Assembly: GCF_000832015.1 (NCBI RefSeq)
Contig: NZ_JXCJ01000001.1
Span: forward strand, 3,314,971-3,365,362
DNA: 50,392 nucleotides
Direction of reading: 5' to 3'
Source of the DNA: Gilvimarinus agarilyticus
GTDB lineage: Bacteria > Pseudomonadota > Gammaproteobacteria > Pseudomonadales > Cellvibrionaceae
Shown: positions 9,491 through 36,400 of the stretch, in pieces
Position numbering within the stretch: the stretch's first letter is position 1
Layout: every line of letters begins with the position of its first letter
Position numbers and translations under genes: made by a program
The notes under the pieces: model-generated
Told to the model about the DNA's origin: nothing
Database searches by the model: none
The model's input: the letters and a program-made list of their open reading frames with translations, nothing else

Positions 9491-11431
9491 TTAATCTTGC
9501 GAGTCAGAAGCCGCCACGCGACTACGATTAGCGATATCGGCACTCAGATGCTCACTGAACGCTTCCAGACTCATTGCGCCCAAGTCTTGACCGTCACGGG
9601 TACGGACCGCCACTTGGTTGGATTCGACCTCTTTGTCACCGATGACCAAGAGATACGGAACCCGCTGAATTGTGTGCTCGCGGATTTTAAAGCCGATTTT
9701 CTCGTTTCTCAAGTCCGAAACAGCCCTAAACCCATTATTTGCTAGGGTTTTTTCGACTTTTTGCACATATTCGGCCTGATTGTCCGTAATATTAGCCACC
9801 ACCACCTGAACCGGCGCCAGCCAAGTGGGGAAAGCCCCCTCGTAGTTTTCGATCAAAATACCGATAAAACGCTCGAACGAACCGAGGATCGCCCGGTGCA
9901 ACATGACCGGCACCTGACGCGAGCCATCTTCGGCCACGTACTGGGCATCGAGCCGGCCTGGCATCGAGAAATCCACCTGAATGGTGCCGCACTGCCACAC
10001 CCGATCGAGGCAATCTTTTAACGAGAACTCGATTTTGGGGCCGTAAAAGGCGCCCTCACCCGGCAGTAACTTGTACTCCAGACCTTTGGCATCCAGCGCA
10101 TCGGCCAATGCTTGCTCGGCGCGATCCCAGTCTGCGTCAGACCCTACCCGCTGCTCGGGGCGAGTCGAGAGGCGAATAATCACTTCGTTGAAGCCAAAGT
10201 CGGCGTATACCTGATACAACAGATCGGTGAAAGCCGCCACTTCGTCCTGAATCGCCGCCTCGGTACAAAAGATATGCGCGTCGTCCTGGGTAAAGCCACG
10301 CACCCGCATAATACCGTGCAACGAGCCAGAGGCCTCGTTGCGGTGGCACGAACCAAACTCCGCCAAGCGCAACGGCAGGTCGCGATAGCTGCGCAACCCC
10401 TGGTTAAACACCTGCACATGGCAGGGGCAGTTCATGGGTTTAACGGCAAATTCGCGATCTTCCGACTTCAGCATAAACATGTCGTCGCCAAACTTGTCGG
10501 CGTGACCGGATTTTTTCCACAGGCTTAAATCCACCACCTGGGGGGTTTTGATCTCCTGATAGCCGTTATCGCGCTGTACTTTGCGCATGTACTGCTCGAT
10601 AGCGGTGTACACCGACCAACCTTTGGGGTGCCAAAACACCATACCCGGGGCTTCTTCCTGCATATGAAACAGGTCAAACTTTTTAGCCAGTTTGCGGTGA
10701 TCGCGCTTTTCGGCCTCTTCCAGACGATGCAAATACGCTTTTAACTCTTTTTTGTCGTTCCAGGCGGTGCCGTAAATGCGCTGTAACTGAGTGTTGCTGG
10801 CATCGCCACGCCAGTAGGCGCCCGATACCCGCATCAATTTAAAGTGACGCATTACCCGGGTATTGGGCACGTGTGGGCCACGGCACATATCTACATATTC
10901 TTCGTGATGATACAGGCCCACAGCCTCTTCACCGGCCTCGATCAGACCATCAACCAGCTCGACCTTGTAGCTTTCGTTGCGGCTGTTAAACACCTCGCGG
11001 GCGTCCGCAATCGGGGTCATCTTCTTAACGACGTCGTAATCTTTTTTAATCAGCTCTTTAATACGCTGCTCAATGGCGTTTAGATCTTCTGGCGTCAGGG
11101 TGCGCTCGTACTCGATATCGTAGTAAAAGCCGTTGTCGATAACCGGACCAATAGCCATTTTTGCCTCGGGGTACAACTGCTTAATCGCGTGCCCTACCAA
11201 GTGCGCAAAAGAGTGGCGAATAACCTCCAGGCCCTCGTCGTCACGGCCGGTAATCAAGCTGATAGAGGCGTCGTGATCAATCAGCTCGCAGGCATCAACC
11301 AGCTCGCCATCAATACGGCCGCACACGGTGGCCTTGGCCAAACCGGGGCCAATATCCTCAGCTACCTGCAACAGGGTAACGGGCTGGGCAAACTCGCGAG
11401 TAGAACCATCGGGAAGAGTAATAACTGGCAT
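9491..11431 (-). CDS. thrS: Threonine-tRNA ligase
   Basis: This encodes 646 residues. In order it has the TGS domain (1-61), the editing domain (about 62-225, with [13 protein letters not shown] and the MCRGPHVP segment), the class II core (about 240-535) with [10 protein letters not shown] and [20 protein letters not shown], and the anticodon-binding domain (from about 540). The Cys and His residues of the catalytic zinc site are visible. It is the first gene of the translation operon, and infC follows by 20 bp. In E. coli thrS represses its own translation through a leader structure; I did not verify such a structure here. Confidence 0.98.
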
Positions 11432-11862
11432 GTTACATCCTTAATCTCAGTGGTGACCCCTACCAAAGGCCACTTGTTGCTGTGTTTGGGCGTGCAGCCC
11501 CTATAAATTCGGGCGGGCAGTATATAAAACCCACAGGCAATAAGCCACCGCCGCTGTAACATTTGGCCCCGCCCCGCGTCTTTATTAACACCTTGTGTAC
11601 CACTCGCGGTAAAACCAGCGAAAGGAGTTTTTAATGTCCCCCTTAACGTTTTCGGGCCGTAACGGGCGCATGTTCTTAATGGCTCTTACCGCAACAATCC
11701 CCAGGGCCCTAAACCCGATTACCCGCTATTAAGTGCTGCACCATGCTATATTACCCGCTTATTAATAGTGGCAACGCGTGGCGCTGCAACTGGGCGCGCC
11801 CCCGAAGGTCGCTCTGCATCCAGTGGGCCGGCGTTCAGACAACTCAGGAAAATCTACCTCTT
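11432..11862. other. Divergent intergenic region between thrS and an ECF sigma gene
   Basis: About 430 bp hold the thrS leader and promoter (left side) and the upstream region of the sigma factor (right side). The only coding candidate I can see is a 32-codon ORF at 11634-11732 with a strong ribosome-binding site. A TATATT at about 11747-11752 could be a -10 element for the sigma gene. This would explain why the ATG at 11743, which gives an unusual Trp/Cys-rich extension, is probably not the real start. Confidence 0.5.
11634..11732 (+). CDS. Possible small protein or leader peptide, 32 residues
   Basis: ATG at 11634 is preceded by AAAGGAG with about 7 bases of spacing, one of the best ribosome-binding sites in the window. 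The product begins MSPLTFSGRNGRMFLMALTA and ends in NPITRY. It has a short hydrophobic middle flanked by Arg, so it could be a membrane-associated small protein. It lies 130 bp before the TTG start proposed for the sigma factor. I recognise no family. Ribosome profiling or conservation would be needed to confirm it. Confidence 0.35.
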   Translation: MSPLTFSGRNGRMFLMALTATIPRALNPITRY

Positions 11863-12501
11863 TTGAGTACGATCAGTACCCTTAACGTGACGCCGTCCAC
11901 CCCGGACGAGCAGCTGGTAAGCGCCGCGCAACAAGGCGCAGAGGCCGCTTTAGTCGAGCTAATTAACCGCTACCAGACGCTGCTGCTAACTGTGGCGCGC
12001 GCCATTGTCGGCCAGGCCCATGCCGAAGACACAGTTCAGGAGGCCTGGCTGTCGATTTACCGCTCGCTGGATCGCTTTGAGGGGCGCTCCAGCTTTAAGA
12101 CCTGGGCCGTGCGCATTGTCAGTAACGAAGCCAAAACCCGCCTAAGGCGAGAGTCGCGCACAGTAGCGCTGGATGAGGCCGAGTTAGAGCGCCCCCGCCT
12201 GGACGAAAACAACTTTAAAAACAACGGCCACTGGGCCGCCCCACCGTCGCGCTGGCACAGCGAGACACCTGACGCCCTACTCGAAGAGACTCAGCTAAAG
12301 CGTTGCATCGAGAAAACCCTGAGCTTGCTGCCCGAGCGCCAAAAAGCCGCGTTTATGCTGCGCGATTTAGAGCAACAGCCACTGGAGGAGATCGCTGACA
12401 CCCTGACAATCAGCAACGCCAACGTTCGGGTATTGCTACACCGGGCCCGCCTGACTTTATTGCAAGTGGTAGAGCACTATCAGGAGACAGGCCAATGTTA
12501 A
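11863..12501 (+). CDS. ECF-family RNA polymerase sigma factor
   Basis: The product is about 212 residues from the TTG at 11863. Other in-frame starts are the ATG at 11743 and the GTG at 11887. Sigma region 2 spans about 15-85 (LVELINRYQTLLLTVARAIV, HAEDTVQEAWLSIYRSLDRF). Region 4 lies at about 145-205 (LSLLPERQKAAFMLRDLE, then helix-turn-helix around LTISNANVRVLLHRARLTLL). This is a classical two-domain group IV sigma factor. It overlaps the next gene, a small zinc-type anti-sigma factor, by 7 bp, so the two are translationally coupled and form a sensor pair. Stimulus and regulon cannot be read from the window. Confidence 0.87.
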   Translation: MSTISTLNVTPSTPDEQLVSAAQQGAEAALVELINRYQTLLLTVARAIVGQAHAEDTVQEAWLSIYRSLDRFEGRSSFKTWAVRIVSNEAKTRLRRESRTVALDEAELERPRLDENNFKNNGHWAAPPSRWHSETPDALLEETQLKRCIEKTLSLLPERQKAAFMLRDLEQQPLEEIADTLTISNANVRVLLHRARLTLLQVVEHYQETGQC

Positions 12502-12737
12502 GCTGCCGCGATGTTGCACAACAGGCGAGCGACCACCTCGATATCACTGACGAGCCAGGCCTAAAGCCCAGCATGCAGATGCGCTTGCACTTGCTGCTGT
12601 GCCGCCACTGTCGCCGCTTTATACGCCACCTGCGCGCCAGTCGGACACTTGCGGTGCAAGTACAACAAAAACACCAACGCTGCGAGCAAGGCGAGCGTAT
12701 TTTGCGGCAGGTTAAACGCGACAAACCCGAAAGTTAG
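12495..12737 (+). CDS. Small zinc-binding anti-sigma factor (zf-HC2 type)
   Basis: This encodes 80 residues. It shows C4, then H32-x3-C36-x2-C39, the HxxxCxxC pattern of zinc anti-sigma domains. The rest is a short basic helical tail and there is no transmembrane segment, so it would act in the cytoplasm, as RsrA- or ChrR-like proteins do, by clamping the sigma factor until the metal or thiol site is disturbed. Its start lies inside the sigma stop (ATGTTAA). It is shorter than most anti-sigma factors and lacks a separate sensory domain. Confidence 0.75.
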   Translation: MLSCRDVAQQASDHLDITDEPGLKPSMQMRLHLLLCRHCRRFIRHLRASRTLAVQVQQKHQRCEQGERILRQVKRDKPES

Positions 12738-27153: not shown

Positions 27154-28341
27154 TTAATAACCTCGAGTAATGGTCAGAATAGCAATGTCATCGGGTGTGG
27201 CTGTTACTTCATCAACCCCTACCGCGTCGCACACTGCTTCTAGATTTTGCGCCTTTTGGGCGAGCAATTCCAGTAAATACGCCTCTTTTTCTTGTAGCGT
27301 TGAGGGGGGCAATATTTCTAGCACCCCGTCAGAAAAACACACAAGTGAGAATTTCTCAGGCAGTATCTGTGAGTGAATCGTCCAGCTAACGTCGCGAAAG
27401 ATTCCCACCGGTTTGCCATTGCCACTAATAAATTCAGCCCCCTGTTCGGTTACCAGTAAGGGCATCGGTAGGTGGCCGGCAACCACATAGCGCATCTCGT
27501 TGGTGTGCGTATCAATGACACCCACAAAAAACGTTAGGTGGTGATTTAGACGGGTTTCTACCAGCTCGCGGTTGATTGCGCGCAGCATTTCATTGGCGCC
27601 GTCGGTAAACGAGGCTTCATCACCAAACAACCCCTCTTCGCGAACCATCCGACTCACAATATGCTTAAGCCAAATGGTGACAAACGCCGACGACGCACCA
27701 TGACCGGAGACATCGGCCAAATAAAACGCCAAGTAGCGCCCTTTAATATGGGCATAATCAACAAAGTCACCACTTAAATACAGTGACGGAGCAATATGGT
27801 GCGCTGCACTGTAACCCTCGGCCGTGGTCAGTGGTTTGGGCAACAAGCGGCGCTGCACTTGACGCCCCGCCAACTGGTCGCGCTCAAGTACGCGCAGATT
27901 GTCCCGCAGATCTTTGTTGGCTTTTTCGAGTTTTTCGCGGTATTTTTTGTTTTGTGCAAGCAGGTCGCGGCGCTCTAACGCCTTCTCAACCGAGTGCTCC
28001 AGCACTTCCATATCGACAATGGGTTTTATCAGATAATCGGCGGCGCCGAGCCGCAATGCCGAGACCACGTCGCTCATAACCCCGGCACCCGAAATGACAA
28101 TAACAGGAATATCGCTGGATTTTTCGTGCAGGCTTTTTAATACGCCCAAGCCATCCATTGTCGGCATACGCAAGTCGGTAATTACCAGCTCGACGTCACC
28201 TTCGTCAAACAATGCTAAGCCACTGGGACCATCGGCTGCCTCCAGCACACGGTAACCACTGTCTTCTAAAAAGGCTGTAATACTGTGCCTTACCGGCTTA
28301 TCGTCGTCGATAATCAGCAGTGTTCGGCAGCTTTCGTTCAT
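27154..28341 (-). CDS. Response regulator fused to PP2C serine phosphatase
   Basis: This encodes 395 residues from the ATG at 28339-28341. In-frame starts up to 28386 exist without a better ribosome-binding site. The receiver domain (about 5-120) has LLIIDDDKPVR acid pair, phospho-Asp in VITDLRMPTMDG and Lys in LIKPIVD. A coiled-coil linker follows (about 125-170), then a PP2C/SpoIIE-type phosphatase (about 180-390) with SGDFVDYAHI, LADVSGHGASSAF and FSDGVLE metal-binding Asp residues. Phosphorylation probably switches its activity on the downstream STAS protein. No cognate histidine kinase is adjacent. Confidence 0.88.
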   Translation of the reverse strand: MNESCRTLLIIDDDKPVRHSITAFLEDSGYRVLEAADGPSGLALFDEGDVELVITDLRMPTMDGLGVLKSLHEKSSDIPVIVISGAGVMSDVVSALRLGAADYLIKPIVDMEVLEHSVEKALERRDLLAQNKKYREKLEKANKDLRDNLRVLERDQLAGRQVQRRLLPKPLTTAEGYSAAHHIAPSLYLSGDFVDYAHIKGRYLAFYLADVSGHGASSAFVTIWLKHIVSRMVREEGLFGDEASFTDGANEMLRAINRELVETRLNHHLTFFVGVIDTHTNEMRYVVAGHLPMPLLVTEQGAEFISGNGKPVGIFRDVSWTIHSQILPEKFSLVCFSDGVLEILPPSTLQEKEAYLLELLAQKAQNLEAVCDAVGVDEVTATPDDIAILTITRGY

Positions 28342-28535
28342 GGTTTGAGTCCGCGTAGCCATTTCGGATACAGCTGCGCCCGGCAACTGTCGTAATGGCG
28401 CCTAACAGTACTCCGATAGCGACAGCGGCGCAAGCATTCAGGCCCCCGAGAGCCGCGTATGGAGTTAGCGAAAAAACGCTGATACTCTTATATGGCTCTG
28501 AACACCACTGCATCGTCCCGTTGGAGGGCCAAAAA

Positions 28536-28841
28536 ATGAGCCATTCAGAGAGCTTTTACGCCGAAAAACGCGATTTTATTCGCATGAAGATTGAGTTGCC
28601 CCTAAGCGGAACCCTCACCAATGACAGTGGCCGCATCACTGGCCAATGCCATGAGCTAAGCGGTGGCGGGCTTCAGCTCGAACTGCCCGAGGCGGTCGCG
28701 GTGGAATCTCAGTGGGAGTTACACCTAAGCGCCGAGCACGATGAGCGAGCCCAGCTGCGAGCTGTGGTAAAGGTCGTTAGATGCACAACGGAGGGAGATC
28801 ACTTTAGTGCCGGCCTCCAGATCGTGCAGGTGATTGAGTAG
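28536..28841 (+). CDS. PilZ-domain protein
   Basis: This encodes 101 residues from the ATG at 28536, with GGAGG upstream. It is one PilZ domain. The arginine motif RDFIR (RxxxR) near residue 12 and the later ELSGGG, a variant of D/NxSxxG, form the cyclic-di-GMP site. The Asp/Asn of that motif is Glu here, so binding strength may differ. It probably carries c-di-GMP signals to motility or surface functions. It is divergent from the PP2C/STAS pair and close to it, which may be functional. Confidence 0.85.
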   Translation: MSHSESFYAEKRDFIRMKIELPLSGTLTNDSGRITGQCHELSGGGLQLELPEAVAVESQWELHLSAEHDERAQLRAVVKVVRCTTEGDHFSAGLQIVQVIE

Positions 28842-29732: not shown

Positions 29733-30176
29733 TTAACGACAATAAAATTTCATATAAAGGCCTGTGGCGCCCCGCGCTTCTGGCATATAAGACTCTTCGA
29801 TAAGCGCTGCAGCGCCCTCGCAGTGCTCTGTCGCTTGCCTCACCAGTGCGTAACGCGCCTGGAGCATATCCAATGCACTGGCTATGGTATTACGACTCAG
29901 GGTAAATTCATCCCCCACAGCCACTGCGCTATCAGCCGAGGCCTTTAACTCGCTGGACTCCTCAGCGGGCTTAGCATCGCCGCGGCCTTGCAGCCAACCG
30001 TTTAAACCTTCATCGCTGTAATCACACTCGGCGATACGGTTAACGGCGTCGTTACTCTCCATCAGGTCTACAGCCGGTTCGCATTCTTGCCCTACCGCAC
30101 TGGCGCCGTATAGCAATGTGGCTATCACAGCGACCAGTGTAGCACCTGGTTTGCGCACGGATCCGTTCACACTCAC
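29733..30176 (-). CDS. Uncharacterised periplasmic protein
   Basis: This encodes 147 residues. A signal peptide is likely (about 1-29, VIATLLYGASAVGQ). The mature part has four Cys, which could form two disulfides (in GQECEP, IAECDY, TEHCEG and the terminal KFYCR), and a helical middle. I recognise no family. It begins 5 bp after the porin stop, so it is probably in the same operon and under the same phosphate-type promoter. A role beside the porin is inference. Confidence 0.6.
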   Translation of the reverse strand: MSVNGSVRKPGATLVAVIATLLYGASAVGQECEPAVDLMESNDAVNRIAECDYSDEGLNGWLQGRGDAKPAEESSELKASADSAVAVGDEFTLSRNTIASALDMLQARYALVRQATEHCEGAAALIEESYMPEARGATGLYMKFYCR

Positions 30177-30181
30177 CCCGA

Positions 30182-31087
30182 TTAGAATTTCATTTCCAGG
30201 CCGACACCCAAATAATCGTCATCGCGAATGGCGTCATCCTGATTCGTCGTAAAATAGGCAAAAGCCTTGGCCGTTTTTGAAAAGATATAATCGCCACCCA
30301 GGCTGAAACTCTCGCGGCCTTCGACTTTGATGTCCGACTGGCCATACTGAGTTTTAAGAATCCACTGATCGGTAAGGCTCCACTTAAGTGAGGCAAAATA
30401 GCCATCACCGCTGCCTATGTGTCGCTCATACTTTTCGTAAGCGCCGCCCAGCTGAAATGCACCCAGCGAATAGGCCCCAACCAAACGATAGGTATCGGTG
30501 TTGTCGACGTTGTCCTCTACGTCCTGATCCATCGCCATGGCGAGATATAAGTCTTCAAGTTTATAAGCGGCCGAGGCCGAGACGCCGTCAATACCATCGA
30601 CTTCTTTCGTGATGTAAGCCACTTTAGCGGTAACCGGGCCTAGGGATTTTGGGGTGACGTACTGAACGATATTCTTGGGACGGTTTTCGCCGGCGAATAT
30701 GCTGCGGATATCGCCCTCAAGATCGTTAAATAAATCCACCCCGGCGGCAGCGGTTTTGAGGGGAGAGTCAAAAACCCCACCCATCAGAGTACCGCCGGCG
30801 GTTTGCAGGCCCAGGTAGATATTGCGTTGGGTCAGCGTCTGGCCATCTTTATCGCCGTCATCAACACTGGTTTCATATTCAAAACGGTAGAGGATAGCCA
30901 CACTATCCGATAGGGACTCCTGCCCCATAAGGCCGATACGCGACGAGTTACTCTGTAGCTCAATCTCGCGGTTACCCGCCTCATCAGCATGCTGCAACGA
31001 AACATTCGCTTTACCGTAAACCGTTACATCAGCAGAGGCCTGAGCGGACACTAAAGCGGCCGCGGCCAGTAAAAATGGAACTCGCAT
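30182..31087 (-). CDS. Gram-negative porin (Porin_4 type)
   Basis: This encodes 301 residues. Signal peptide: 1-19 (LLAAAALVSAQASA-DV). The mature chain opens with DVTVYGKANVSLQHADEA, the usual first strand. It contains LGLQTAGGTLMGGVFDSP near the constriction loop region and ends in GLEMKF with the C-terminal Phe required for outer-membrane insertion. It is a trimeric diffusion-porin type. Its promoter region holds five Pho-box repeats, so I infer it is a phosphate-starvation porin. The sequence family itself does not tell substrate specificity. Confidence 0.88.
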   Translation of the reverse strand: MRVPFLLAAAALVSAQASADVTVYGKANVSLQHADEAGNREIELQSNSSRIGLMGQESLSDSVAILYRFEYETSVDDGDKDGQTLTQRNIYLGLQTAGGTLMGGVFDSPLKTAAAGVDLFNDLEGDIRSIFAGENRPKNIVQYVTPKSLGPVTAKVAYITKEVDGIDGVSASAAYKLEDLYLAMAMDQDVEDNVDNTDTYRLVGAYSLGAFQLGGAYEKYERHIGSGDGYFASLKWSLTDQWILKTQYGQSDIKVEGRESFSLGGDYIFSKTAKAFAYFTTNQDDAIRDDDYLGVGLEMKF

Positions 31088-31109
31088 GAATCTTCCCCAA
31101 CTTTCAAAT

Positions 31110-31160
31110 ATGACAACAAGATGTACACTTGATGACGATTAGATGACAGATATATGACAA
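31110..31160 (-). promoter_or_regulatory. Pho-box array, five repeats
   Basis: On the minus strand five heptamers stand exactly 11 bp apart: TTGTCAT, CTGTCAT, TCGTCAT, TGTACAT and TTGTCAT (plus-strand starts at 31154, 31143, 31132, 31121 and 31110). Each is separated by 4 bp. The PhoB box is a pair of CTGTCAT-like heptamers with a 4-bp spacer. The array ends 22 bp before the porin ATG. Some repeats may overlap the -10 region. Confidence 0.8.
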
Positions 31161-31255
31161 ACCTGCGTATCATGCGAGCCAATTGTTGCAGTATTGTTAC
31201 AAGCGGGCAATATTTTCTGCATTCTGCGTGTTTGTCTATCTGATTACCAACACCA

Positions 31256-32011
31256 TCATTCGGCAGCCGGCCACAAAACATCTTTTTGGTATAGTTCGAG
31301 AAGTATAGACTCTCCCAGCGCTATAAAACGAGCCGTGTCGGCGAAACCAACCTCTTGCGACAGTGCCGTCAAGGCCGCCCGCGCCGGAGTGGCTTCTGCC
31401 TGTAGCATTTGCACCATGCGCACGGTCACGGCATTCGAGTGGATGAACTCCACCTGATCGGCGCGATTGCGAAAAACCAATACAAAAGTCGGCTCATCTG
31501 GCGGCGCCAGGGGTTGGTAATCTGGCCCAAGCCTATGCACCGGATACTGGTAGTTAAGACACCAAACCAGAGGCGATACATCAATAACGCTATCGAGCAG
31601 ACTTAGTTCAACGGAAGGCTTAGGCGGCAAGTCGCCGGGCGCAACATCCAGCGCTAACTCGACCCACTCGTAATGGGCCAACTCCAACATAAAGGGTGGG
31701 TCGGAGGCATCGCTTGAGCGCTCGTTTTGCAGGTAGAGTAAAAACTCCTGGCTGATTTCTAAAAAGTAAGGGCTGTGGCTTTTGTGCCGCGAAATAAAAT
31801 CCCGCACCATCGCGTGCCAGTGAGCATCGGGCAAGATTTCACGCAACACCGGAAACCCGCCGGCAATAAAGCCCTCAATATTGTTGTAAATTAAATCGCG
31901 GTAAACCGCCAGACGGCGATTTTCTATACCTTCAGGGGCCGCATTAACATCAGGGTGACGTAAATGCCCGGTAAAGGCTTGCTGCAATTTGGCCAGCGAC
32001 GATTCGCTCAC
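31256..32011 (-). CDS. hvfC: DUF2063-type maturation partner (HvfC/BufC-like)
   Basis: This encodes 251 residues. The N-terminal DUF2063 domain (about 5-95) has LAVYRDLIYNNIEGFIAGGF and FPVLREILPDAHW. The C-terminal part (about 130-245) is the second domain common in this family (SPLVWCLNYQYPVHRL). In the family it acts with the DUF692 protein to modify Cys residues of a short secreted precursor, as MbnC does in methanobactin synthesis. It overlaps hvfB by 4 bp (ATGA), so the order is A-B-C with coupled translation. Confidence 0.88.
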   Translation of the reverse strand: MSESSLAKLQQAFTGHLRHPDVNAAPEGIENRRLAVYRDLIYNNIEGFIAGGFPVLREILPDAHWHAMVRDFISRHKSHSPYFLEISQEFLLYLQNERSSDASDPPFMLELAHYEWVELALDVAPGDLPPKPSVELSLLDSVIDVSPLVWCLNYQYPVHRLGPDYQPLAPPDEPTFVLVFRNRADQVEFIHSNAVTVRMVQMLQAEATPARAALTALSQEVGFADTARFIALGESILLELYQKDVLWPAAE

Positions 32012-32886
32012 ACCAGCACCCTCTTATGCGCCGATGTAGCGGCCGCTGCGCCAGCCTGAATACGCGTACCAGTCTGCAATCGCCTAATAGTATCGAGCTC
32101 AGACAACAGCTCTGCTACCGGCGGAATATTAAAATCGCGCTCAAGCAAGGTGGCAACCGGCCCGGCCTGTTGATAAACCGCTTCTAGCAAATCCCACACA
32201 GGGTCTTCCACCGGGGCACCGTGGGTATCGACGCGTAAATCTTCGGCCTCATGAAAGTGCCCGGCCACATGCATATAGGCCACCCGGTCCAGCGGCAAGC
32301 CTGCCAGAAAATCATCCGTCCGATAACGATGATTAATGCTGTTTACGTATAAATTATTCACATCCAGCAGTAGGCTGCAATCGGCCTCGGCCACGACCGC
32401 GTTAATAAATTCCAGCTCGCTCATCTCCTGTCCGGGAGCGCAATAATACGACGCATTTTCGATAGCGATGCGCTCGCCCAAAATATCCTGAGCCTGACGA
32501 ATTCGTGCGGCCACATGGTGAACGGCCACCTCCGTAAAAGGGATGGGCAATAAATCGTATAGGTGTCCATCGTCGCTGCAGTAGCTTAAATGCTCGCTGT
32601 AGCCGCGAACCTGGTGCTCACGCATAAACGTCTTGACGGATGTTAAAAGCTCCACATCCAGCGGCGCCTGCGAGCCAATGGACAAGGACAAACCGTGACA
32701 CACAAACGGAAAACGCTCGGTGTAGGCGCGAAACTGTCGCCCTAACCGACCACCAACGTTAATCCAGTTCTCGGGGGCCACTTCCATAAAATGGATATCG
32801 TTAGTGGAGAGGTTCTCGAGGGGTTTGAGTAACGACCGGCGCAGGCCCAGGCCCGCACCGGTAACGTCAAAGCGATGCGAACTCAT
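32008..32886 (-). CDS. hvfB: DUF692 multinuclear non-heme iron enzyme (HvfB/BufB/MbnB-like)
   Basis: This encodes 292 residues from the ATG at 32884-32886, which overlaps the hvfA stop as TGATG. A start at 32898 would lie inside hvfA. It is a TIM-barrel with family metal-binding motifs: VCHGLSLS, RGYSEHLSYC, IENASYYCAP, LLLDVNNLYVNSIN, MHVAGHF, VDTHGAP and LLERDFNIPP. DUF692 enzymes with two or three irons oxidise Cys side chains in precursor peptides to oxazolone-thioamide. The HvfA motifs (EGKCG) match substrates described for this family. Confidence 0.92.
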   Translation of the reverse strand: MSSHRFDVTGAGLGLRRSLLKPLENLSTNDIHFMEVAPENWINVGGRLGRQFRAYTERFPFVCHGLSLSIGSQAPLDVELLTSVKTFMREHQVRGYSEHLSYCSDDGHLYDLLPIPFTEVAVHHVAARIRQAQDILGERIAIENASYYCAPGQEMSELEFINAVVAEADCSLLLDVNNLYVNSINHRYRTDDFLAGLPLDRVAYMHVAGHFHEAEDLRVDTHGAPVEDPVWDLLEAVYQQAGPVATLLERDFNIPPVAELLSELDTIRRLQTGTRIQAGAAAATSAHKRVLV

Positions 32887-33272
32887 CAGTGACCGCAAGT
32901 ACCTTCAGCGCCGGACTTTTTCTCGCCACAAGCGCCTTCACGGTCGGCCTTTTTCTCTCCACATTTACCTTCGCCGCACTTGCCCTCATCGTCGGCTTTA
33001 GCTTTTGCCTCACCGCACTTGCCTTCACCACATTTACCTTCGTGCTCAGCCTTGTCCTCGCCACACTTGCCTTCACGCTCGGCTTTTTTCTCGCCGCACT
33101 TACCTTCACCGCACTTGCCCTCAGCGCTGTTCTCAGCAAGCTTGTAACCGGCGCTTAGCGATTCGGCGGCAAATGGATTTTCTGCCGCCGAGGCAACCGG
33201 CGCTACTACGGCCGAAGCCATAAAAGCCGCGCCAACTGCGGCGGCCAAAGGAGATGCAAATTTCTTATTCAT
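32886..33272 (-). CDS. hvfA: HvfA-like secreted precursor with nine Cys motifs
   Basis: This encodes 128 residues. Signal peptide: 1-29 (AFMASAVVAPVASA-AE). From residue 51 it is built of repeated EGKCG pentapeptides: seven exact copies plus EGACG and EGTCG. Cys are at 54, 59, 70, 81, 86, 99, 104, 115 and 126. The spacers are charged (KKAERE, KADD), and there is no fold beyond this. It is the presumed substrate of the two downstream enzymes. Family knowledge (HvfA, bufferins) links such peptides to copper chelation in the periplasm. No DoxX-like or other accessory hvf genes follow. Copper binding is inferred. Confidence 0.88.
   Translation of the reverse strand: MNKKFASPLAAAVGAAFMASAVVAPVASAAENPFAAESLSAGYKLAENSAEGKCGEGKCGEKKAEREGKCGEDKAEHEGKCGEGKCGEAKAKADDEGKCGEGKCGEKKADREGACGEKKSGAEGTCGH
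32889..33122 (-). repeat. Imperfect coding repeat (EGKCG unit)
   Basis: The second half of hvfA is an imperfect tandem repeat whose 15-bp core encodes EGKCG, in singles and doubles. It is a coding repeat rather than a separate element; unequal recombination could change the motif number. Confidence 0.8.
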
Positions 33273-33335
33273 GGGTTAACTCCATTACTCGATTGTTAAA
33301 ATGCAGCGGCTTTGCACTGACTTAGCCTACTGTAT

Positions 33336-33341
33336 GGTTAC
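33336..33341 (-). promoter_or_regulatory. Possible ECF -35 element for hvfA
   Basis: Read on the minus strand, GTAACC lies 64 bp before the hvfA ATG. GTAAC-type -35 blocks are used by ECF sigma factors that control related bufferin operons. A matching -10 (CGAA) at the usual distance is not present; CAGT stands in its place. Weak evidence. Confidence 0.2.
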
Positions 33342-33497
33342 GCAGCCAACCCCGTTCAGGATCAACTGTTAAGTACTGATGCACGAACAAGGCTTTTGTT
33401 ACATAACCTATCGGGCAGTGGCCACTATTACCGGCCTCCACATAATACGCCTCAACCACCATTTTAATCCCGCTCAAGTTCTCGATTATCGCACGAG

Positions 33498-36400
33498 CTA
33501 ACGTTGGGTCGCCTCTAACCAGAGTTTATTAAGCCGCTTACCCGATACCGGAAACCGGGTTTTTAGGGTCTGAGCAAACAACGACACCCGAAACTCCTCG
33601 ATAGCCCAACGATAACGCATCAGATCAGGGTTTTCGGTTAACTGATAACGCCCGTGCAACTGTAAGTACTCCGCCAGACGCTCCTCGTGCGGCTCTACTT
33701 CAATCATCTGCAGGCGATCTTTTTGCGGGTTAAGAGCCGCCTTTTCCAGGCGCATATTAACCGCCTGTAAATAGCGCGGGTACTCCTGAAACCACTCCTC
33801 AGGCGTATCAAATACCAACGAGGGCTGAAACAACCGGTCCAGTTGCTGGGCAATATCGCCGGCCGCCAAGGCAATTGCCAGTGCATTTTTCGAGTGTTTA
33901 AGCTGTTTTTTTAGCGCCACCACTAAGCCCAGCGAGGCAACCAGTGTTTTCTCTAGCTGTTGCGCCTGTGCCACTAAATCGGGCTTAACCTTAGCCAAGC
34001 AAGCCTCAAACTCAGCCTCGGTGCGCGGCAGCTGGTCATTGGGCATCGCCAACTGTCGTGCCGCCGCCATGATAATATCGTCCACCACCCGATCACGGTT
34101 GCCAATTTGCACAACGCTTAGGCCCAACTCCTTGCCTTTTAACAGCTGTTTTTGCAGATATTTAACCGTCTCTTTACTTTGCAGCAGCAACAAGCGGGCA
34201 ACCCCGGCGAGCGAGGCCGAGTGCGCCTCCTGCGGGTTATCCAGCACTTGCATAGACGCCGAGTCGCGCTTATCCAACAGGGCAGGATAAGCACGAATGC
34301 TCAACCCCCGGCGTTTAAGCTGTACTTGCTCGGGCAGCTCCAAATCCCAAGCGGTAATTTGCTCCCGGGTAATATCATCGGCGGCGTCGCGAATATTATC
34401 CTGCACTCGTTCACGGTAATTCGCTTTAAGCTCAGTTAAGTCGCGGCTGGCCGCTATGATTTTACCCCGGTCGTCCACCACCTTAATGTTAAACCGGTAG
34501 AAGTTCTCCAGCCGCTCACTCTGCCAATCACCAGGTTTAAGCTCTACTAAAGTTTGGCGCTTTAGTTGCAAACTTAACGCCTCGGTCAAAGGGCTATTAT
34601 CGGGCGCCAAGCCGGCCAGCGCTTTGTCGACAACGTCGGGCACCGGCACAAAATGTTTGCGCAGTGGTTTGGGCAGGCTTTTTACCAGCTCGATGCATTT
34701 ATCACGCAGTAGCCCCGGCACCAACCACTCCAGCCGGTGCTCGGGCAGCTCATGCAATAGACTAACCGGCACGTGTACACTTACGCCGTCGTCTTTATGG
34801 CCGGGCTCAAAGTGATAGCTCAGGGGGTAAGTCACCCCTTTGTGGTCGAGCGTATCGGGAAACTGCACCTCGCTTACGGCGCCAGCGCCCTGCAAAACCA
34901 AACGCTCACGCGGGATTTTTAAAATACCCGGTTGCTCTTGCTCGGCCTTTTTACGCCAGGCATCAAAGCCTGCGCGATTGACCACGTCCGCGGGGATACG
35001 CTCATCGTAAAAGGCAAAAATTTCCTCATCGTCCACCAAGATATCCCGTCGCCGGGATTTGGCCTCCAGGGCCTCGATCTCCTGCACCAGCGCTTGGTTA
35101 TGTGCGTAAAAAGGCACTGACTTTTGGCCGCGTTTAACATAGCGCCCCTCTACCAAGGCGGCGCGGATAAACACCTCACGGCAGACTTTCGGGTCAATTT
35201 TACTGTAGTTAATACGGCCTTTCTCGACCAGCGCCAAACCATACAAGGTGACCCGCTCGTAGGCTTTCACCTGCCCCGCCTTGGCATCGTAATGAGGCTC
35301 AAAGTAGTTGCGTTTTACTAAGTGCTCGGCTGCCTGTAGCAGCCACTCGGGTTCGACCTTGGCAACGTCGTGAGCAAACAGCTGGGACGTCTCTAGTAGC
35401 TGCGCCGCCACCAACCACTTGGGGCGCTTTTTTTGCTGCGACGAGCCGGGGAAAATCGCAAACTTGCGGTTGCGCGCGCCTAAGTAATCACGGCCCTCAT
35501 CGTGAAAGCCGATATTGCCTAATAGCCCGGTTACCAGCGAGCGGTGGACCGCTTCATAGTCAGCCGGATGGCTGTTCGCTTGCAGGCCAATCTTTTTAGC
35601 GGCTAATTTTAGTTGCCGGTGGATGTCGCGCCATTCGCGCATGCGCATAAACGCCAAAAACTCTTTTTTACATTGCTTACGCAACTGGTTTTGGCTCAGC
35701 TCCTGACGCTGCTGCTCAAAATACCGCCAAAGATTTACATACGCTAGAAAATCAGAGTGCTCGTCGGCAAAGCGCTTGTGTTGTTGGTCGGCGGCTTGCT
35801 TTTTTTCAGCGGGACGTTCGCGCGGGTCTTGTACCGAGAGCGCACTGACGATAATTAACACCTCTTCCAGCGCTCCGAGCTTGTCAGCCGCCAACAACAT
35901 ACGGGCCAGCTGCGGGTCGACCGACAGCTGAGCTAAACGACGGCCATCGCCAGTTAAGCGCTTGCGATTATCGACCGCATGCAGCTCTTCGAGCATTTTA
36001 AAGCCATCATTTATCTGACGGGAATCCGGCGGGTCGACAAACGGAAACTTGTGAATATCGCCAATGCGCAGCTGCAGCATTTGCAAAATAACCGCCGCCA
36101 AATTCGTGCGCAGAATCTCGGCATCGGTAAATTCCGGGCGGCTTAAAAAGTCGTCTTCGCTGTACAGGCGAATACAAATACCGTTACTCACCCGCCCGCA
36201 ACGCCCTTTACGCTGGTTGGCGCTCGCTTGCGATATGGGCTCGATAGGTAGGCGCTGTACTTTAGTGCGCACACTGTAGCGACTGATACGGGCCACACCG
36301 GTATCAATCACGTACCGAATGCCCGGCACGGTAATAGAGGTTTCGGCCACATTAGTGGCCAGAACTATACGTCGCCCGCGATGGGCCGAGAACACCAGGT

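Follow-up and report, generated by a model that had tools for sequence, protein, structure and literature searches.

The window analysed here is a stretch of 50,392 nucleotides from Gilvimarinus agarilyticus (GCF_000832015.1, contig NZ_JXCJ01000001.1, positions 3,314,971 to 3,365,362). It carries three overlapping genes, hvfABC, on the reverse strand at 31256-33272 and, about 20 kb away within the same window, a gene for an extracytoplasmic function (ECF) sigma factor followed by a small anti-sigma-like gene. The features central to the analysis are listed below in window coordinates.

32886..33272, minus strand: hvfA, precursor, 128 amino acids (aa), nine Cys, signal-peptide-like N-terminus, C-terminal CGH
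32008..32886, minus strand: hvfB, MNIO (DUF692) peptide maturase, 292 aa, ATG start
31256..32011, minus strand: hvfC, DUF2063 / NGO1945_C partner protein, 251 aa, GTG start
33374..33403, minus strand: promoter-like element upstream of hvfA, TGTAAC-N16-CATCAG, differing from TGTAAC-N16-CRTCTA at two positions; its end lies about 100 bp ahead of the ATG
11555..11584, plus strand: TGTAAC-N16-CGTCTT, promoter-like element preceding the sigma gene
11743..12501, plus strand: ECF sigma factor, orthologue of the sigma factor that follows hvfX in sister species; start codon uncertain
12495..12737, plus strand: small anti-sigma-like protein, 80 aa, HxxxCxxC motif

An earlier note on this DNA had proposed an HvfA-type, copper-related modified-peptide system, and the family scores confirmed its gene identities. 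HvfB matched NCBIfam NF003818 with 434.8 bits (cut-off 360) and Pfam PF05114 with 345.1 bits (cut-off 25), while HvfC matched NF050145 with 302.7 bits (cut-off 142) and PF09836 with 95.4 bits (cut-off 27.2). HvfA reached 68.4 bits against the repeat model NF050137 (cut-off 19.5), contains three stretches matching the HvfA domain model and, as described before, holds seven EGKCG motifs, one EGACG and one EGTCG. It stayed below the stricter HvfA equivalog NF050188 (55.6 bits, cut-off 95), a narrow model that does not define the group, and a Pfam search of HvfA returned no family. Judged by eye, its N-terminus has a basic start, a hydrophobic stretch and an ASA/AE-like site. The hvfA stop codon and the hvfB ATG overlap as TGATG, in agreement with the note; the second overlap, given there as ATGA, is GTGA because hvfC starts with GTG. 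The closest solved structures by sequence are 3bww for HvfB and 3dee for HvfC. In the genome, which consists of two contigs and is listed as 100% complete, there was no second MNIO (one match overall) and no further HvfA precursor was found (three domain matches, of which the one among those listed lies inside hvfA). Together, these matches support an assignment to the HvfABC/captophorin, Lys-Cys (EGKCG) group. Bufferins (DUF2282 and 6/12-Cys, PMC12452194) have a related MNIO and a DUF2063 partner; membership in that group was rejected, as HvfA matched no Pfam family and HvfB scored 261 against the cut-off of 310 of the bufferin maturase model NF050167. Membership among the methanobactins was likewise rejected, with 43.5 bits for HvfB against MbnB TIGR04159 (cut-off 325).

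The note had named a lack of conservation of the DUF692 active-site residues as a refuting outcome, and the alignment did not refute it. At all 15 positions checked (R16, R17, H64, H99, E143, D175, N177, N178, H206, H210, D220, H222, E249, D251 and F252), 86 of 87 aligned rows of relatives are identical to the window HvfB, which served as reference (L032 and L119 are one gene); the sole exception, L054, has Lys in place of R16. By our own position counting, R16/R17 and D251/F252 correspond to Arg15/Arg16 and Asp249/Phe250 of FonB (PMC13097082), and D220 and H222, aligned through 3bww, to Asp242 and His244 of HvfB (PMC13419390).

The surroundings of the cluster were compared among 80 named loci that encode a close relative of HvfB. 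In 40 of them, Microbulbifer included, hrpA and/or mlaA stand around the cluster (37 hrpA, 34 mlaA, 31 both). None of these 40 block loci showed an adjacent DoxX-like gene (two of the 40 end too early to tell), whereas such a next gene is present in at least 32 of the 40 remaining loci. Pfam DoxX was detected in 32 of the 69 scanned genes next after hvfC; such a gene was collected from 70 of the 80 loci (L110 was left unscanned), four loci end early and six lack a 100-aa open reading frame (ORF) within 400 bp. As the next gene was taken as the longest ORF, it may miss DoxX, and L077 and L100 look like such cases. The order hrpA-hvfABC-(porin)-mlaA is common to the window and Microbulbifer and, because of this shared block without a DoxX next gene, the window cluster is the positional orthologue of Microbulbifer mmrABC (bulbicupramide, PMC12538549). 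Both consist of three genes in the order A-B-C with an EGKCG precursor. Unlike mmrABC, the window HvfA has nine motifs, two of them non-Lys, and the window genome is devoid of hvfX, which passes the cut-off in 45 of 48 Microbulbifer (g22) genomes. Fontimonas fonABC (fontiphorin, captophorin class; PMC13097082), termed minimal by its authors, also has the ABC architecture, the EGKCG repeats and the RR and DF specificity/catalytic residues. Against this background, the adjacent DoxX gene is indeed absent, as the earlier note said, but the distinct, minimal version that it deduced from this absence does not hold, since no block locus showed an adjacent DoxX and the published descriptions of both fon and mmr comprise A, B and C alone. 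The cluster itself is a known kind of system, and the claim of distinctness fails.

HvfX, described as uncharacterised in PMC13419390, was followed across the family. No DoxX gene lies beside the window hvfABC, and neither PF07681, an hvfX protein query nor the HvfX model NF050144 gave a match anywhere in the window genome. A search for an hvfX remnant at 11401-11900 yielded nothing above noise (best E 0.45). Across 144 family genomes, HvfA domains exceeded the cut-off in 102: 92 genomes have both hvfA and hvfX, 10 (the window genome included) hvfA only, three hvfX only and 39 neither (Fisher odds ratio about 120, for species that are not independent). Having hvfA without any HvfX is an uncommon trait of the window genome, found in 10 of the 102 hvfA genomes. 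In the 66 genomes where both genes could be placed, they are within 5 kb in eight, 19-22 kb apart in five (Gilvimarinus) and farther apart or on another contig in 53, although an hvfX on another contig of a draft genome may still be near hvfA. By co-occurrence and distance, HvfX is therefore tied to the hvf pathway but is mostly encoded in trans.

The place of hvfX in the relatives points to the sigma gene. In five sister species the gene order is thrS-hvfX-sigma-anti-sigma-prc, while in the window and in one further Gilvimarinus genome (G043) it is thrS-sigma-anti-sigma-prc; by this comparison, hvfX appears to have been lost in the window species. The order hvfX, ECF sigma, small protein is found in genus g9 as well as in five Gilvimarinus genomes; g9 is Cellvibrio, as its precursor sequences are common with named loci. 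Of the 30 hvfX loci with the best scores, 21 have both sigma and anti-sigma matches within the stretch examined around hvfX, a count that leaves aside the weak matches of L165; in the four g27 loci, hvfX and sigma are divergent. The window sigma factor matched PF04542 (67.2, cut-off 24), PF08281 (52.2, cut-off 25.7) and TIGR02937 (107.4, cut-off 42.9), and stayed just below PF07638 Sigma70_ECF (19.9 against 21.1).

Aligning the regions upstream of hvfA from eight Gilvimarinus genomes revealed TGTAACA and CTATAG at a fixed distance in most of them. The strict pattern TGTAACA-N18-CTATAG occurs once each in five of the eight genomes, always before hvfA (control 0). In the 144 family genomes it gave 11 exact matches against four for a reversed-pattern control; nine of the 11 precede hvfA (five in Gilvimarinus, four in Cellvibrio) and two precede a stand-alone hvfX in Cellvibrio. 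Since this pattern was read off hvfA regions only, a match before hvfX is an independent test, and within two mismatches it was present before 14 of 21 hvfX genes (control 0/21). The hvfX upstream counts cover 21 loci, as no hvfX start was located in nine of the 30 best. The form TGTAAC-N16-CRTCTA, written after viewing the hvfX loci, precedes hvfX exactly in 11 and within two mismatches in 17 of these 21 (control 0). Before hvfA, it was found within two mismatches in 16 of 44 block loci (control 1/44), and in nine of the 36 block loci outside Gilvimarinus (control 1). Plain GTAAC before hvfA was uninformative (block 20/44 against 12 by shuffling, others 8/36 against 9).

In Microbulbifer, TGTAAC-N16-CRWCTA, widened after viewing the hvfA elements of this genus, precedes hvfX within two mismatches in 11 of 12 loci, the control having four or more mismatches in all; the form TGTAA(C/G)-N16-CGAC also stands before hvfX in 11 of the 12. 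The -10 half of the hvfA element is CGAC or a near variant in Microbulbifer L058, L059, L087, L092 and L102, and this Microbulbifer form may explain the misfit of a single pattern across the family. In the window genome, TGTAAC-N16-CRTC-N2-TA, fitted to the window hvfA and sigma elements, has four matches (control 0), one before hvfA and one before the sigma gene, the remaining two lying within genes or pointing away from them. No convincing additional targets emerged in this genome, another pattern giving three matches, two of them inside genes, against two for its control.

Control of such clusters by ECF sigma factors has precedents. Haemophilus influenzae hvfABCX (oxazolin) has the same HvfA, HvfB and HvfC families, and an ECF sigma factor (RpoE2/HrsE) with a small anti-sigma factor at a separate locus controls the cluster (PMC13419390, PMC7907618), as we suggest for the window; hvfX lies inside the hvf cluster there, in contrast to its position beside the sigma gene in the relatives of the window species. 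In the Neisseria sigma-E operon NMB2140-2145 (PMC2893595, PMC3240639), one regulon comprises sigma-E, its zinc-type anti-sigma factor MseR, DoxX and three hypothetical genes, with a promoter of the same shape; it is a single operon there, whereas in the window two places are separated by about 20 kb and hvfX is missing. For Neisseria sigma-E, the published consensus is GTMAGBWTT, 12/13 nt, CGTCTAAH (PMC2893595); when the hvfA/hvfX element is read as GTAACNNNN-N12-CGTCTA, its spacing and -10 core equal those of this consensus, and its -35 half has C for G. In Neisseria and Haemophilus, such sigma factors control the DoxX gene with its three hvfABC-corresponding neighbours as well as msrAB (PMC3240639, PMC7907618). 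ECF group 13 is named for Neisseria and Streptomyces relatives, and a link to hypochlorite stress is described for the related Haemophilus sigma factor (PMC7907618). In Caulobacter, a bufferin cluster is under sigma-F control via GTAACC-N16-CGAA (PMC3511200). From the Neisseria, Haemophilus and Caulobacter precedents, ECF control is therefore already known for this class. A split with hvfX beside the sigma gene, or the loss of hvfX, was not found in print, in a search whose coverage of subscription papers was thin.

The motifs of the precursor were compared in 100 precursors distinct over the last 70 residues, drawn from 113 collected from the 80 best HvfB relatives, the eight Gilvimarinus genomes and the 30 HvfA domains with the highest scores. 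Motifs were counted only if they fit [EDQS][GAH]xCG; L045, L097 and L098 (wrong ORFs) were removed, and L062, L068 and L078 yielded no precursor. Sampling by best scores therefore biases the set towards close relatives and tidy repeats, and the species are related and hence not independent. Among the 806 motifs, position 3 is other than Lys in 35 of 129 unpaired compared with three of 677 paired motifs (40/131 and 5/686 when a few stray Cys are included). In the 18 precursors with both kinds of motif and at least one variant, 35 of the 37 variants are in unpaired motifs where 16.9 were expected, a value reached by none of 20,000 within-protein shuffles. The two variants of the window HvfA are exactly its last two motifs, both unpaired. 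These counts suggest that constraint acts on the paired EGKCGEGKCG unit. The earlier note had seen the variant third residue as a mark of distinctness, a view not supported by the set, in which 19 of 100 precursors have at least one non-Lys motif, nor by the processing of position-3 Ala and Thr by FonBC (PMC13097082). A literature search for EGSCG, EGTCG and EGACG found no paper on an HvfA-type system. Change at position 3 is extreme in the natural precursor of L047 (Pseudomaricurvus alcaniphilus), with eight EGSCG and only two EGKCG. Separately, the EGKCG precursors of L065 and L080 carry an EF-hand-like stretch (DADGDGS...) between their repeats.

We consider it probable, with good confidence, that the window holds a captophorin/oxazolin-type cluster most likely switched on by the distant ECF sigma factor, in a species that has lost hvfX. 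As sequence anatomy, a two-place regulon with one member lost is well supported in the relatives and more weakly for the window hvfA element; as a mechanism it is a prediction. The alternative of an ordinary captophorin operon under a housekeeping or copper-sensor promoter, with the sigma pair nearby by positional coincidence, seems unlikely. In its favour, the window hvfA element is degenerate, G048 retains hvfABC without the sigma gene, and the 18-22 kb spacing in Gilvimarinus could be simple synteny. The looser pattern TGTAAC-N16-CNTCTA also shows no overall excess in the eight Gilvimarinus genomes (11 matches, of which four precede hvfA, two precede hvfX and five lie elsewhere, against 10 for the reversed control). 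Other observations weigh against the sigma-controlled reading as such: the -10 half of the window hvfA element is weak (CATCAG), the strict pattern has no match in the window genome, G045 or G048, the CRTCTA pattern is at control level outside the hrpA/mlaA block (2/36 against 1/36), and all patterns were shaped on the group's own sequences. G048, with a near-intact element, lacks a close orthologue of the sigma factor (best 30% identity) as well as any hvfX above the cut-off; no sigma gene was found beside hvfX in the 12 Microbulbifer loci examined; and the window anti-sigma protein scored 44.4 against NF052368 (cut-off 50), with 54.7 and 50.8 for two scanned relatives. Against coincidence speak the element that stands before hvfA as well as before hvfX in both Gilvimarinus and Cellvibrio, and the CGAC form before hvfX in Microbulbifer. 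A scan of 30900-33560 for the sigma-70 consensus found two sites against 1.9 expected, and the only one on the hvfABC strand lies downstream of hvfC.

Two further alternatives concern the chemistry. The note had expected oxazolone-thioamide at the Cys residues; the products of oxazolin and its relatives, formed by HvfBC, have since been reassigned to 5-thiooxazole (PMC13097082, PMC13419390). This argues against methanobactin-like copper acquisition with oxazolone-thioamide groups, for which the common enzyme superfamily and the weak MbnB match speak, and the distance of that match from its cut-off together with the DUF2063 partner makes it very improbable. Alternatively, the unpaired EGACG and EGTCG could be decaying, unmodified units, leaving HvfA with seven thiooxazoles instead of nine. 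Relaxed constraint predicts the near confinement of non-Lys residues to unpaired motifs, and a FonA peptide with one repeat remained unmodified where two repeats were modified (PMC13097082). FonBC, however, accepted Ala and Thr at position 3 in a two-repeat substrate (PMC13097082), changes that were laboratory-made there and are natural in the window HvfA. Most variant motifs in the precursor set retain E, G, C and G with S, T or A as the substitution, and the final motif is EG(T/A/S)CGH in seven of the eight Gilvimarinus genomes (paired in two, G043 and G046). We therefore regard decay as rather doubtful and, because FonBC processed both residues, the variant Cys of the window HvfA as probably modified.

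Following the sigma-controlled reading, HvfA would be synthesised with a Sec-type signal peptide, and HvfB-HvfC, an iron-dependent MNIO with its recognition partner, would convert its Cys residues, very likely the EGACG and EGTCG ones too, to 5-thiooxazoles. These groups are predicted to bind Cu(I), and the modified HvfA would reach the periplasm and bind copper there under envelope, metal or oxidative stress. MmrA, by comparison, is modified at all six Cys and a bulbicupramide fragment binds Cu(I) (PMC12538549). The same source also holds a point against this reading: its authors detected no MmrABC with or without copper and were reluctant to ascribe a copper-protection role to it. Transcription of hvfABC would most likely be activated by the sigma factor (11743-12501) through the common TGTAAC-N16-C(A/G)TC promoter, with the small zinc-type protein (12495-12737) restraining it. 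HvfX would stay in the regulon of the relatives, mostly away from hvfABC, and would have been lost in the window species.

For the family as a whole we favour, somewhat more cautiously, a split regulon for the captophorin system of Cellvibrionaceae, with hvfABC at one place and hvfX, often with the sigma/anti-sigma pair, at another, under one ECF promoter. Seemingly minimal ABC clusters, mmr included, would therefore be four-gene systems under an envelope-stress sigma factor and not under copper control, and the window species would be a natural hvfX-loss mutant. The chemistry being known already, what is gained concerns regulation and evolution. The Microbulbifer authors had no explanation for the strict retention of mmr despite its not being detected with added copper (PMC12538549); under a shared ECF promoter, the inducer missing there is predicted to be the signal of the sigma factor, the related one in Haemophilus being linked to hypochlorite (PMC7907618). 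Genomes with ABC and without X, set against the 92 of 102 that keep both, offer natural controls for the role of HvfX.

Downstream of hvfC, the window encodes a Gram-negative porin (PF13609; 30182-31087, minus strand). A related porin follows hvfC in all seven other Gilvimarinus loci and in 11 of the 80 named loci, among them Cellvibrio, Pseudomaricurvus and Pseudoteredinibacter. The porin gene is separated from mlaA by a gene for a 147-aa protein (29733-30176, minus strand) with no Pfam match, found in the seven other Gilvimarinus loci at 33-49% identity. All seven also have the fusion of a response regulator with a SpoIIE-type phosphatase (27154-28386, minus strand) and the PilZ protein encoded divergently from it (28395-28841, plus strand).

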